IMG/VR virus record: IMGVR_UViG_3300025112_000039 | Span: 1-43,427 of that record | Source of the DNA: a virus | Reading direction: 5' to 3' (one strand) | Length of the DNA: 43,427 nt | Shown: in pieces, positions 22,897 to 28,225 of the stretch | Position numbering within the stretch: position 1 is the stretch's first letter | Layout: each line of letters begins with the position of its first letter | The notes under the pieces: generated by a model | The model's database searches: none | Told to the model about the DNA's origin: nothing | Seen by the model: the letters and a program-made list of their open reading frames with translations, nothing else | Position numbers and translations under genes: made by a program

Positions 22897-23575
22897 TTGG
22901 TACTCGTTTCTTGCTAATGTAAATTTTACGGATTGATTCTTTTCCAAACTTGTTACCCAGTCGATTCGTGTGTCCATAGTCCTCTAGGACATCAGAGATT
23001 TCACGGTATGATAGACCTGCATCACGTAGCTTGTATACCTTGCGACATATATCTGCCTCAGCAGGACACAATCTGACGTACTTAGGTCGGTCAGGGTCTT
23101 TCTCCCAACCAAAGGGTGCTTTGAGGCCACACAGACGGTCCTGGCTACGCATGTGGTCAAATGCTGCCATAGTACGCTCAACAATAATCTCACGTTCCCA
23201 TTGGGCAATTACGCTAAACATATTAGCCACCATGCGACCACCTGCTGTACTCGTATCAATGCTATCCATAATCGCAATGAGATTCTTATCGCACTTGGCG
23301 AATGTATCCATGAGATTAGCCCAGTCTTTTATGGATCGGGACAATCGGTCTAGCTTAGTGATTACCATGCCATCAATGTTGTCACCCGTAAGGTCAAACA
23401 TCGCATCACGGATACCACGTCTGCGCAGGTCACGACCGGATTCACCCTTGTCCTGATAGATACGAATCAAATCGTACTCCATCAACTCACAGTGAACACG
23501 TATCTTAGTGCATTGGTCACTCAGGCTTAGACCCTGATCGCCAGTTGATACACGAGCATATCCTATGACTCGCAT
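22889..23575 (-). CDS. Serine recombinase (resolvase/invertase family)
   Basis: 228 residues. The start MRVIGYARVSTGDQGLS contains the catalytic Ser10 and Arg8 of the resolvase domain. YQDKGESGRDLRRRG, MVITKLDRLSRS and the VIAQWEREIIVERT helix follow in the usual order. The C-terminal part (KVYKLRDAGLSYREISDVLE) is a compact DNA-binding domain. The length is that of Tn3/Hin-like resolvases, not of large serine integrases. It may resolve genome multimers, invert DNA or help the element move. No attachment sites were seen. It overlaps the T5orf172 gene upstream and the HTH gene downstream. Confidence 0.85.
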   Translation of the reverse strand: MRVIGYARVSTGDQGLSLSDQCTKIRVHCELMEYDLIRIYQDKGESGRDLRRRGIRDAMFDLTGDNIDGMVITKLDRLSRSIKDWANLMDTFAKCDKNLIAIMDSIDTSTAGGRMVANMFSVIAQWEREIIVERTMAAFDHMRSQDRLCGLKAPFGWEKDPDRPKYVRLCPAEADICRKVYKLRDAGLSYREISDVLEDYGHTNRLGNKFGKESIRKIYISKKRVPND

Positions 23576-24462
23576 TGTGTATCCTCCTTGTCAGCAAAGT
23601 AAGACTTTACCTCGCTGAGATCATCAGCATCGAGTTTGAACCACTCACCACGTACTCGCTTGTCTGCAAATTTCCTGTGGAGTGCAGTCTCATCAAAATG
23701 AAAACCCGAATTATGAAACAGCAACTCAATGGTTGGTTTCTCGCTCTGGAGGGTTTTCTCACGACGAGTAGGGTTAGTGGATCGACCAATCTTGTAAAGC
23801 CCAGTGTTCTTGTCAATCATCACGTAGACATTGGTTGGTTTTATATTAGAACTTTTCTCTTTGGTAACTCGCTCACCAATATGGGAGATGCAAATTCGTT
23901 CGTCATAGCTCTTCCCCAAACTCCACGATTCAAAGTTTCTATCGAGCAGTAACCCTTTAATTTGCGGGTAGTTGTGGTTTCCTCTACCATAACCACTAGG
24001 AACATGTAGCGTATTATAGAGTTTGCTGTCGGAGATTTTCACATAACACGGCAAGATCGGTTCGCTGTCGTTATCAAAATGTGTGATTACTCTTTCTCCG
24101 TTGTAATCGTAACCGCGCGTACTGCAATCGAAACCCGAAAGCTCACATTCGGGACAGTCTTCAAATGAAAAGTTCTTTACCTCTCCATCAATGTAAGTGC
24201 CGTCCGTACTAGACCACGCAGTTCGATCTTCTTGTGAATATATTGATAACCGTCTTGGTGAAATCCATTGCTTTACAGGTGACGGTAGTATGAGTTTATA
24301 AAAACAGTTCGTTCTAGGCATTAGGTTAGCCTTTATCTTTTTCCTGTTTTTATCAATCCACTCCTTTCGGTCTTGTTTAATTTCTTTCACCTGAGACTGC
24401 AAGGCATCTATCTGTTCCTGGTATGAACCAAATTGGTCACAAAGTATTTGTTTATCGTTCAT
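23563..24462 (-). CDS. T5orf172 (GIY-YIG-like) domain protein
   Basis: 299 residues. An N-terminal coiled coil (YQEQIDALQSQVKEIKQDRK) is followed by a middle region with Cys pairs (CPECELSGFDC). At about residues 210-290 lies the T5orf172 domain: NVYVMIDKNTGLYKIGRSTN, then PTRREKTLQ, a histidine region and RGEWFKL. T5orf172 is a branch of the GIY-YIG nuclease superfamily; many members are phage early proteins and some are mobile. The start motif ACCGATGAA overlaps the end of the preceding gene. A nuclease or regulator role is likely but unproved. Confidence 0.75.
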   Translation of the reverse strand: MNDKQILCDQFGSYQEQIDALQSQVKEIKQDRKEWIDKNRKKIKANLMPRTNCFYKLILPSPVKQWISPRRLSIYSQEDRTAWSSTDGTYIDGEVKNFSFEDCPECELSGFDCSTRGYDYNGERVITHFDNDSEPILPCYVKISDSKLYNTLHVPSGYGRGNHNYPQIKGLLLDRNFESWSLGKSYDERICISHIGERVTKEKSSNIKPTNVYVMIDKNTGLYKIGRSTNPTRREKTLQSEKPTIELLFHNSGFHFDETALHRKFADKRVRGEWFKLDADDLSEVKSYFADKEDTQCES

Positions 24463-25338: not shown

Positions 25339-25343
25339 CGGTC

Positions 25344-25361
25344 TTAGTCTCCTATTTTCAT
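25344..25361 (-). CDS. Five-codon leader ORF (MKIGD)
   Basis: The start motif ACCGATGAAA occurs here without a long gene: ATG AAA ATA GGA GAC TAA, ending five bases before the next ATG. Its GGAGAC forms the SD of that gene, so translating it would cover or clear the site. It may be a coupling leader or only a copied start cassette. Confidence 0.35.
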   Translation of the reverse strand: MKIGD

Positions 25362-25395
25362 CGGTATTGCTAACCAGTACGTACTGATTAGTCAG

Positions 25396-25444
25396 GTCAC
25401 AGGATCGGAATTGAACCGATCTGCATCTACGCCCATTCGGTGAC
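25396..25444 (-). repeat. tRNA-like T-arm element 1 (acceptor-like stem plus T-arm)
   Basis: Minus strand: GTCAC (25444-25440) pairs with GTGAC (25400-25396). Inside is a T-arm-like hairpin, ATCGG and CCGAT around the loop TTCAATT (25420-25404), preceded by 19 unpaired bases. The T-arm is canonical, but there is no room for D- and anticodon arms. It lies in a 113-nt gap between two small genes, followed by the 12-bp palindrome CAGTACGTACTG (25375-25386). Confidence 0.5.
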
Positions 25445-25451
25445 AGGGGTG

Positions 25452-25871
25452 CTAGTCGGTCGATTCCCCCTTCAATTTATCCCATGCCCAGACAATCACC
25501 TTGTCTAGGATAGCTTCGAGGGGTTGCTGTATTTCTTCGTAGGATTGGTCGTAATCAGCGTATTCCTCTGCAAACCTAAATGTAAGCCAACGGATCTCAT
25601 AGTATTCTCCGTCATCTATTGCATACTTTAATATTCCGAGTGATTGACCCGCAATGGTAAAATCCTCGTCCTCTTGTCGTTCGATATTGCACCCTCCACC
25701 ATTGTAAATATCGTAGTACAATCTTGCTGCCATACGGAAAACCTCGGCAGCGAGTTCTTTGCATTCACCGCAAGGTGGTATAAATTCCTTTTCTAGTTGA
25801 CGTGATTTCTTTTGGTGTTTACCGTTTCCGCTCCAGTAGGTTTTCATCGGTCTTTTAGTTTTAGTTTTCAT
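25452..25871 (-). CDS. Hypothetical early protein, 139 residues
   Basis: Two in-frame start motifs occur, at 25871 and 25847, both ACCGATGAAAAC; the second may be the true start. The N-terminus is basic (KHQKKSRQLEKEF). A CGECKEL site follows, then mainly acidic helix with many Tyr and Trp (RFAEEYADYDQSYEEIQQPL). Not recognised. Its stop is seven bases before tRNA-like element 1. Confidence 0.6.
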   Translation of the reverse strand: MKTKTKRPMKTYWSGNGKHQKKSRQLEKEFIPPCGECKELAAEVFRMAARLYYDIYNGGGCNIERQEDEDFTIAGQSLGILKYAIDDGEYYEIRWLTFRFAEEYADYDQSYEEIQQPLEAILDKVIVWAWDKLKGESTD

Positions 25872-25890
25872 CGGTCTTATCTCCCAGTCG

Positions 25891-25983
25891 TTAAAGTTTA
25901 AAATTAAAAATCATACAGCCTAATACAAACGCTATAACGCATAGCATCGCAGCGCGTAATTGTTTGTGGTGTTCTATTTTCAT
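25891..25983 (-). CDS. 30-residue membrane microprotein
   Basis: ATG in the shared ACCGATGAAAA context, with GGAGA upstream. A charged N-terminus (MKIEHHKQLR) precedes one hydrophobic segment (AAMLCVIAFVLGCMIF). VLGC resembles a lipobox, though only eight residues follow the Cys. It fills the gap between two small early genes. Function unknown. Confidence 0.5.
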   Translation of the reverse strand: MKIEHHKQLRAAMLCVIAFVLGCMIFNFKL

Positions 25984-26017
25984 CGGTATTGTCTCCAAAT
26001 AGGGTAAAAATCAGTCT

Positions 26018-26275
26018 CTACAAGTGTTCTAATCGGTTATTTGTGTCCGATAGTGGGGGGTAAGTGGTTATGGGTTTAGTCCAAAAACCAGTGTCTTGAT
26101 CCCAATATCCTAAATGGCTATTGCAGGTTTTACACTTTTCTTGGTGGTGTAATTCGTGACAACCAGACCAACCAGCATAATCTTCTGATTCTCTTGCGCA
26201 GTAATCACTACAAAAATATTCAACATCGACAACATCGACGTTTTCACTATCAAATATTAGTATTTGGTGAACCAT
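26018..26275 (-). CDS. Small Cys-rich protein
   Basis: 85 residues; AGAGGA lies eight bases before the ATG at 26275. FCSDYCARE and EKCKTCNSH supply a probable zinc site; the N-terminus is beta (HQILIFDSENVDVVDVEY). Unlike its neighbours it does not itself start at the ACCGATGAA motif: that motif lies 27 bases upstream and opens only a four-codon ORF. No family recognised. Confidence 0.6.
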   Translation of the reverse strand: MVHQILIFDSENVDVVDVEYFCSDYCARESEDYAGWSGCHELHHQEKCKTCNSHLGYWDQDTGFWTKPITTYPPLSDTNNRLEHL

Positions 26276-26287
26276 TGGTTTTTCCTC

Positions 26288-26302
26288 TTATCTAGGTTTC
26301 AT
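26288..26302 (-). CDS. Four-codon leader ORF (MKPR)
   Basis: ACCG ATG AAA CCT AGA TAA, ending 12 bases before the next ATG and overlapping the start of its AGAGGA site. This is the second place where the shared start motif is kept without a long ORF, which suggests that the motif itself matters. Confidence 0.35.
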   Translation of the reverse strand: MKPR

Positions 26303-26338
26303 CGGTAATTGCATTGGTAACGGTTACCAGTAGCAAAA

Positions 26339-26381
26339 TAGCCCCGTTGGAATTTAACCAACGATTAACGACAGTAGGCTA
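26339..26381 (-). repeat. tRNA-like T-arm element 2
   Basis: Minus strand: TAGCCT (26381-26376) pairs with GGGCTA (26344-26339), six pairs with one G-U. They enclose a 12-nt spacer and a six-pair T-arm CGTTGG/CCAACG with loop TTAAATT. TTTT follows the closing stem. Sequence before (CACCCC) and after (TACTGG, then a start motif) matches elements 1 and 3. A further palindrome TGGTAAC-C-GTTACCA lies at 26315-26329. Confidence 0.55.
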
Positions 26382-26387
26382 GGGGTG

Positions 26388-26786
26388 TTAGTCTGCTATT
26401 GCTGCATTGAATACAGATTCAACGGTTCCACAATCTGAGAAAAACTCGAATATTTCTAATAGTAGTTCTTCATTGTTTCCTATTAAGTTTCGTCTAGCAC
26501 TATCAAACCAATCCAAAAACCAATATTCAACTTTATACGGTTTTAATTCGCTATCGGCATAAAACCGATATTCTGACGCAGGACCCCCCCAACTAATCTG
26601 ATAACGGAAGTAATTATCGCTATCGTCACTCTCGACGTAATCGAAACATAAACCGTATTCATTGAACGAACCTAGTTCTTCAACTTCTTCTTCACCCCGT
26701 TTATCTGCTTCCCACAATATACGTAAATCATGTACGCAGCTTTCTAGGCTTTCTTCTATTCGTTCTTCGCAAGTTTTATCTTTCAT
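26388..26786 (-). CDS. Acidic hypothetical early protein, 132 residues
   Basis: Starts in the TAATACCGATGAAAG context. It is strongly acidic with many aromatic residues (YGLCFDYVESDDSDNYFRYQ) and a C-terminal helix (LLLEIFEFFSDCGTVESVF). Not recognised; acidic small phage proteins sometimes mimic DNA, but there is no direct evidence here. The stop is followed after six bases by tRNA-like element 2. Confidence 0.6.
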   Translation of the reverse strand: MKDKTCEERIEESLESCVHDLRILWEADKRGEEEVEELGSFNEYGLCFDYVESDDSDNYFRYQISWGGPASEYRFYADSELKPYKVEYWFLDWFDSARRNLIGNNEELLLEIFEFFSDCGTVESVFNAAIAD

Positions 26787-26847
26787 CGGTATTACTTTCT
26801 AAATGGGATCGTCGAAAATTTGAACCGGAACGATTCCAGTACAAAAA

Positions 26848-26887
26848 TAGCCCTTGCGGAATTGAACCGCTAGCGTCCATTGGGCTA
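26848..26887 (-). repeat. tRNA-like T-arm element 3
   Basis: Minus strand: TAGCCC (26887-26882) pairs with GGGCTA (26853-26848) by six Watson-Crick pairs. They enclose an 11-nt spacer, the T-arm GCGG/CCGC with loop TTCAATT, and AA. TTTTT follows. Directly downstream a second, weaker acceptor-like inverted repeat GGAATCG...CGATCCC (26837-26805) surrounds GGTTCAAAT. Confidence 0.55.
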
Positions 26888-26895
26888 GTGGTGGG

Positions 26896-27997: not shown

Positions 27998-28225
27998 ATG
28001 CCAGCTTCCGAAACCGTAGAATTACATGCAGCTTGGCGATGGGACTGTCCTGAATGCGGAATAGAGGGCTGGATACGGGGTTTACACCTTGAAAGCGTGC
28101 ATTTGACCGAGAAGCAGCGGGCTGTGCTCAGGGAAGAGGAGTGGTGGGTCCTGTATCCAGAACTCGTTCGCTGTGAGCATTGCGGTAGTGGTTATCGGGT
28201 GCATATGGGTAAAATGGACACATAA
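27998..28225 (+). CDS. Zinc-ribbon protein
   Basis: 75 residues. WDCPECGIEGW and VRCEHCGSGY form two CxxC knuckles about 40 residues apart, as in a zinc ribbon, with a charged helix between (LTEKQRAVLREEEWW). AGGA lies eight bases before the ATG. As first gene of the rightward set it could be a regulator, but nothing confirms this. Confidence 0.65.
   Translation: MPASETVELHAAWRWDCPECGIEGWIRGLHLESVHLTEKQRAVLREEEWWVLYPELVRCEHCGSGYRVHMGKMDT

Follow-up and report, generated by a model that had tools for sequence, protein, structure and literature searches.

Putative tRNA-like punctuation marks between the early genes of an uncultured tailed phage, and their exchange with type II hammerhead ribozymes

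Three gaps between early genes of an uncultured tailed phage each carry a small tRNA-like element consisting of an acceptor-like stem and a T-arm, and we consider these elements to be, probably, punctuation marks in the early polycistronic transcript that are cut by host tRNA-processing enzymes. What was established computationally, in this phage and its relatives, is the structure of the elements, the covariation of its pairs, their position behind stop codons and an exchange with hammerhead ribozymes that is seen both slot by slot and within single operons.

The window, by which we mean the whole stretch of DNA analysed, is a complete IMG/VR virus record of 43,427 bases and encodes a terminase, a DnaB-like helicase-primase, an exonuclease, a Sak4-like annealing protein and a serine recombinase. 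No terminase of a cultured phage is above ~23% identity to that of the window, and DNA comparison with cultured phages yielded nothing useful. Relatives were drawn from IMG/VR contigs and the tRNA-like family was traced through terminase and ardA neighbours, the close relatives found through the helicase being short contigs that end before the element region. Contig L104 is a near twin of the window phage, L140 is the same phage as L082, and L159 is also present as L144 and L091, record G014. The nearest terminases in genome assemblies come mostly from Planctomycetota, Verrucomicrobiota and allied groups, no more than a pointer towards a possible host, and a marine origin is our own reading from the company of related records. 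Three other features of the window may be recorded here. The sequence TACCGATGAAA occurs in six exact copies on the minus strand (25017, 25356, 25978, 26297, 26781 and 27148), at or near early-gene start codons, with no copy on the other strand or in a reversed control, and apparently serves this phage as a standard leader. A GIY-YIG-like protein (Pfam MUG113, T5orf172) encoded at 23563-24462 on the minus strand has no counterpart in L104, where the homology is interrupted, and its gene looks like a recent homing-type insertion. Finally, a long near-perfect inverted repeat (~26 bp arms) at 28055-28175 separates the divergent early and late gene blocks; its weak score against a microRNA precursor family reflects shape alone.

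All three gaps lie between consecutive minus-strand early ORFs and share one order, namely a stop codon, an acceptor-like stem of 6-7 pairs, a linker of 9-16 nt, a T-arm of 6 pairs with a 7-nt loop, and the returning acceptor strand (Table 1). A preliminary description of this DNA had recognised these cassettes, and the gaps, the loops (TTCAATT in W1 and W3, TTAAATT in W2), the closing strands (ending GTGAC in W1 and GGGCTA in W2 and W3) and the U-runs in two of the three (TTTT after W2, TTTTT after W3) are as it gave them. It was also correct that there is no space for a D or anticodon arm, but the linkers, which it put at 11-19 bases, measure 16, 12 and 9 nt, and the T-arm features that it called canonical do not hold throughout, as the T-stem of W3 contains one A.A mismatch and W2 has A rather than C at position 56. 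The acceptor stem of W1 has one C.U mismatch, which is paired in the near-identical copy at 5465-5513 of L104. Copies in related phages are better preserved, and the window copies are less canonical because W1 and W3 have one mismatch each and W2 has A at position 56. The tRNA-like structure is the minimum free-energy fold of the W2 core itself; the calculated best folds of W1 and W3 keep most of the helix with small pairs added or shifted, and W3, when set in the full length of its gap, favours a different fold. A second hairpin, overlooked in the preliminary description, lies directly downstream in each gap.

Table 1. The three tRNA-like elements of the window, their parts and the hairpins behind them.
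Feature	Position in window	Strand	Parts	Score (out-of-sample covariance model with E-values that are rough, the models being short-calibrated; or fold z)
W1 tRNA-like element, whole core	25396-25444	-		32.2 bits, E 9e-6
W1 acceptor stem	25444-25438 with 25402-25396	-	GTCACCG pairs with CTGTGAC	
W1 linker		-	AATGGGCGTAGATGCA, 16 nt, carries the elbow GG	
W1 T-arm	25421-25403	-	GATCGG-TTCAATT-CCGATC	
Hairpin right behind W1	25368-25394	-	CTAATCAGTACGTACTGGTTAG; identical in L104	z -3.5 versus shuffles
W2 tRNA-like element	26338-26382	-		18.6 bits, E 0.026
W2 parts		-	acceptor TAGCCT/GGGCTA; linker ACTGTCGTTAAT (12 nt); T-arm CGTTGG-TTAAATT-CCAACG	
Hairpin right behind W2	26309-26336	-	outer TTGC/GCAA, inner TGGTAA/TTACCA	z -2.1
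W3 tRNA-like element	26847-26888	-		21.1 bits, E 0.006
W3 parts		-	acceptor TAGCCC/GGGCTA; linker AATGGACGC (9 nt) with the elbow GG; T-arm TAGCGG-TTCAATT-CCGCAA	
Hairpin right behind W3	26819-26845	-	outer TTTG/CAAA, inner ACTGGAA/TTCCGGT	z -2.9

The elements exceed chance. A descriptor comprising a T-loop with two stacked stems, and placing no requirement on the linker, found three places in the 43 kb of the window at a score of at least 12, compared with one in 597 kb of Markov-simulated sequence. A covariance model was constructed out of sample from seven elements of L072, L080, L082 and L057, with the window and its near twin L104 excluded; across the 43-kb window its matches up to E = 1 were W1, W3 and W2 only, and the same model recovered two elements from outside its training set, the one at 5465-5513 in L104 and the second of the pair in L072. 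ARAGORN reports no tRNA at W1-W3 or elsewhere in the window, Rfam tRNA likewise reports none, and given the linkers of 9-16 nt and the lack of an anticodon arm with a 7-nt loop, a full tRNA was rejected; no intact tRNA was found in the relatives searched. At the gathering threshold of Rfam 15 the window has no match, and L104, L057, L072, L080 and L082 give at most hammerheads and never the tRNA-like elements, so membership in an Rfam 15 family was rejected as well. The hammerhead catalytic core CUGANGA...GAAA was not found in the window. Pattern searches of viral contigs returned mostly chance matches and real tRNA clusters, plus carriers already known, and were dropped as evidence. Model R1 had no match in the bacterial genomes searched through loci, a result of little weight, as the model also misses two divergent members.

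The family amounts to 16 elements in 8 phage records, window included. The descriptor found copies in L104 (two), L072 (two), L080 (three), L082 (two), L057 (two) and the GC-rich L162 (one), and a scan admitting any 7-nt loop added a variant element in L159. In a structural alignment of 15 elements, standard pairs fill 95% of the paired cells versus 57% when shuffled, and two-sided changes, a count that relatedness inflates, number 69 versus 18.8 +/- 3.5 in shuffles (maximum 30 in 1000). The tool's own count over ten sequences is 33 versus 7.9 +/- 2.3, and slid registers, a control that retains relatedness, are far lower. The covariation is two-sided in both stems. A covariance search was among the checks that the preliminary description had set for itself, and it came out in its favour in this covariation and in the recovery of the window elements by a model from other phages. 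With any loop allowed, a scan just behind stop codons found a T-loop in 12 of 20 two-stem structures (11 of TTC type and the TTAAATT of W2), compared with none of the seven two-stem structures at control positions inside ORFs.

The linkers preserve a further tRNA feature. A GG lies 2-4 bases past the acceptor strand in 14 of 15 linkers, at the place where G18/G19 would dock on the T-loop, as is expected of RNase P and RNase Z substrates and as is predicted here. The sole exception is W2, which has GT at this place and TTAAATT for TTCAATT, converting the tertiary pair 19-56 from G-C to a compensated U-A. Canonical T-loop and linker GG are found together in 14 of the 16 elements, and the L159 loop, ATCATAC, has positions 54 and 58 swapped. 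As far as sequence comparison goes, the changes in W2 and L159, one event each, point to a rebuilt tRNA elbow. The rest of the tRNA is present to different degrees: L057a forms a mini-cloverleaf in which a 3-pair D-arm is joined by a 5-pair arm with a closing loop of just four bases, L104a has a third arm and no D-stem, L159 has a D-arm (GCT-AGTTGG-AGC) and no anticodon arm, and the remaining elements, those of the window among them, have neither arm. The constant part across this series of predicted folds is the acceptor/T-arm half with its elbow. It was also observed that the acceptor strand GTCACCG, or a version one change away, recurs in L080, L082, L104, L159 and W1 as the rest of the sequence diverges, perhaps because it descends from a single ancestral tRNA or because it is recognised by its sequence.

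All 15 elements tested start 9-23 nt on, counted from the first base of the upstream gene's stop codon. In L142 (terminase 82% identical) the equivalent post-stop slots hold type II hammerhead ribozymes at the Rfam gathering threshold, and Rfam hammerhead_II is found in equivalent slots of L159, L160, L178, L060 and L070 as well. Three phages contain both types of element within one operon. The successive gaps of L080 hold two hammerheads (one of them just below threshold, at 36.5 versus 37 bits), then none, then two tRNA-like elements, with a third tRNA-like element after ardA; L082/L140 has one hammerhead above threshold and others below beside tRNA-like elements; and in L159 ardA is surrounded by hammerheads, with a tRNA-like element later in the same row of genes. 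Pfam confirms the ardA gene in L080, L142 and L057. A tRNA-like element stands on either side of ardA in L080 and one comes after it in L057; in L142, L159 and L160 both of its flanks hold hammerheads. The short leader before the next start codon in L140 is similar whether it follows a tRNA-like element, a hammerhead or nothing. Many related phages in which the early region is covered have neither element. Rows of type II hammerheads directly behind stop codons were seen in L060, L070, L080, L140, L142, L159, L160, L168, L178 and L232, several of those in L178 and L160 flanking ardA.

Type II hammerheads (Rfam RF02276) flanking ardA and other prophage genes, in the same post-stop slots and with the same neighbours, were described by Perreault et al. 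2011 (PMC3088659). For those around ardA of an Agrobacterium prophage, cleavage was seen both in vitro and in E. coli, and clusters of them were suggested to divide phage transcripts into mRNAs of gene length (PMC3088659). The purpose of such rows between phage genes was left open at their discovery (PMC3088659). Because an unrelated element occupies the same slots, the tRNA-like element most likely shares the job of the hammerhead, and the presumed outcome, a polycistronic phage transcript divided into gene-length pieces, is the same. The two differ in that hammerheads cut themselves, whereas the tRNA-like elements, which have no catalytic core, must recruit an enzyme.

From these comparisons we infer cleavage, the enzyme, the cut sites and an effect on mRNA stability or translation, in the following way. 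In the RNA, the acceptor-like stem would stack on the T-arm in a helix of 12-13 bp, which compares with the ~12 stacked pairs and canonical 7-nt T-loop of an acceptor/T-arm substrate, the window copies having one mismatch (W1, W3) or A56 (W2). The linker GG would dock on the T-loop and so restore the elbow, belonging to that half of a tRNA which RNase P and RNase Z gauge. Shortly past the stop codon, host RNase P would cleave the 5' flank of the acceptor stem, and RNase Z or another host RNase may cut at the 3' side, releasing a mini-tRNA; the long early transcript would be divided into gene-length mRNAs, of which some would begin with a hairpin, and the type II hammerheads in equivalent slots of sister phages would serve the same job. 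RNase P binds the stack of T-arm and acceptor and the D-loop appears dispensable (PMC4919913), RNase Z clamps the acceptor/T-arm half with its elbow, as shown for human ELAC2 (PMC11996679), and some phage RNAs and mRNAs are processed by RNase P (PMC11143913). The shape of a minimal tRNA-processing substrate would make host RNase P the natural cutter at the 5' side; in this model RNase P is the most likely enzyme, and RNase Z perhaps another.

The preliminary description had listed processing sites that cut the early transcript among several possible functions, and this one appears well supported by covariation, post-stop position and the exchange with hammerheads in the same slots. Its choice of RNase P would fit the anatomy, but a 3' CCA beside the discriminator base is encoded in none of the elements. 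Many RNase P substrates use CCA, though not all substrates encode it; its absence speaks against efficient cleavage by RNase P in some hosts, and would be consistent with RNase Z. Also weighing against punctuation are the mismatches of W1 and W3 with their differing best folds, the terminator-like U-runs of W2 and W3, and the relatives that have neither element.

It is conceivable, though unlikely, that the two hairpins of each gap are uncut structured spacers, serving as 3'- or 5'-end protectors, translational insulators or weak terminators, and that the tRNA likeness is merely that of a compact stable fold. Strong hairpins follow 9 of 15 elements, and W2 and W3 have their U-runs, W2 being listed as terminator-like; hairpins upstream, around the stop codon, are striking in L080 and overall without significance (mean z -1.0). 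A plain protector, however, needs neither the T-loop, nor the linker GG, nor the compensated elbow pair, and self-cleaving ribozymes occupy the same slots. The U-run is found in just two of 16 elements, for which reason an intrinsic terminator, a G+C-rich hairpin with a U-run behind it, was rejected as a family trait.

The preliminary description had also considered translation-machinery decoys and tRNA-derived mobile spacers, for which we found no positive evidence, although genes have been exchanged at one element boundary. A trans-acting decoy, in which the mini-tRNA, either released or still embedded, ties up a host factor that binds tRNA or an antiviral nuclease that attacks it, would suit the proximity of the anti-restriction gene ardA in some phages and the fact that acceptor and elbow are the part read by many tRNA enzymes. 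We regard it as quite improbable, as the lack of an anticodon excludes anticodon nucleases and every copy is fixed behind a stop codon, where it can be replaced by a hammerhead, which decoys nothing. About as little credence is given to recombination joints, repeated elements at gene borders providing homology for the swapping of early gene cassettes. DNA homology between the window and L104 does break at the start of W3 (window 26882-26063 versus L104 3651-4673), beyond which the gene in L104 is another one (Pfam GP88), accompanied by a tRNA-like element of the third-arm type, but the elements within one genome are too dissimilar in DNA sequence for recombination, and what selection preserved is the RNA pairing and not the sequence. 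The slot of W3 in L104 (3646-3678) contains a hairpin of 13 uninterrupted pairs, CTAGCCCCCAATG-AATCGAA-CATTGGGGGCTAG, with a loop that in reverse complement reads as a T-loop (TTCGATT), and then a terminator-like hairpin. Attachment sites are improbable, since a genome has more than one copy and every copy follows a stop codon and has its 5' acceptor strand intact. That the elements are functionless relics of decayed tRNA genes, as the graded loss of arms from the L057 mini-cloverleaf through L104 and L159 to the armless remainder might suggest, is hardly tenable in view of the compensatory changes in both stems and the elbow pair, a covariation that argues strongly against it, of the multiple copies in a genome, which occupy separate gaps, and of relatives with no intact tRNA among those searched.

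The components of the punctuation reading are already known separately, as tRNA punctuation, RNase P cuts in phage RNA and hammerheads between phage genes. Mitochondrial transcripts are punctuated by tRNAs that RNase P and RNase Z process, so that tRNA-shaped units between genes mark the cuts, and reduced tRNAs are tolerated there. Those units are working tRNAs, whereas the phage elements have no anticodon and reside in a phage genome. Phage RNAs cut by RNase P include the phi80-induced M3 RNA, the C4 RNA of P1/P7 and the T4 gene 32 mRNA (reviewed in PMC11143913); these are likewise phage transcripts and host RNase P, but they are single cases, and the review presents none of them as an intergenic family that recurs and shares a conserved T-loop. 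Minimal RNase P substrates made synthetically, model hairpins of acceptor stem and T-arm, have nearly the same secondary structure, but are designed and usually end in CCA, whereas the phage elements are natural, have no CCA and retain the linker GG for the elbow. The tRNA-like structures of plant RNA viruses are also viral mimicry of the acceptor/T-arm half, although they lie at the genome 3' end with a pseudoknot and a CCA end, and the phage elements are internal with a normal stem and no CCA. Anticodon-less tRNA-like intergenic marks, or their exchange with hammerheads, were not found described in the open-access literature searched. The elements are best classed, on the comparisons made here, as a family absent from Rfam 15 and putatively of the kind of intergenic RNA punctuation.

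We see about an even chance that this is an undescribed natural RNA module, in which anticodon-less mini-tRNAs after stop codons serve as cut marks for host enzymes and have been exchanged in evolution with hammerheads, such that an operon is segmented partly by self-acting ribozymes and partly by a recruited host ribozyme, RNase P. An unrelated element in the hammerhead slots, whose sole evident skill is to mimic the tRNA half gauged by processing enzymes, would make cutting between genes the selected function, and one that is directly testable. If this is true, the family would provide natural minimal RNase P substrates, useful for probing the real needs of the enzyme, and a new sign by which early operons may be located in uncultured phages.
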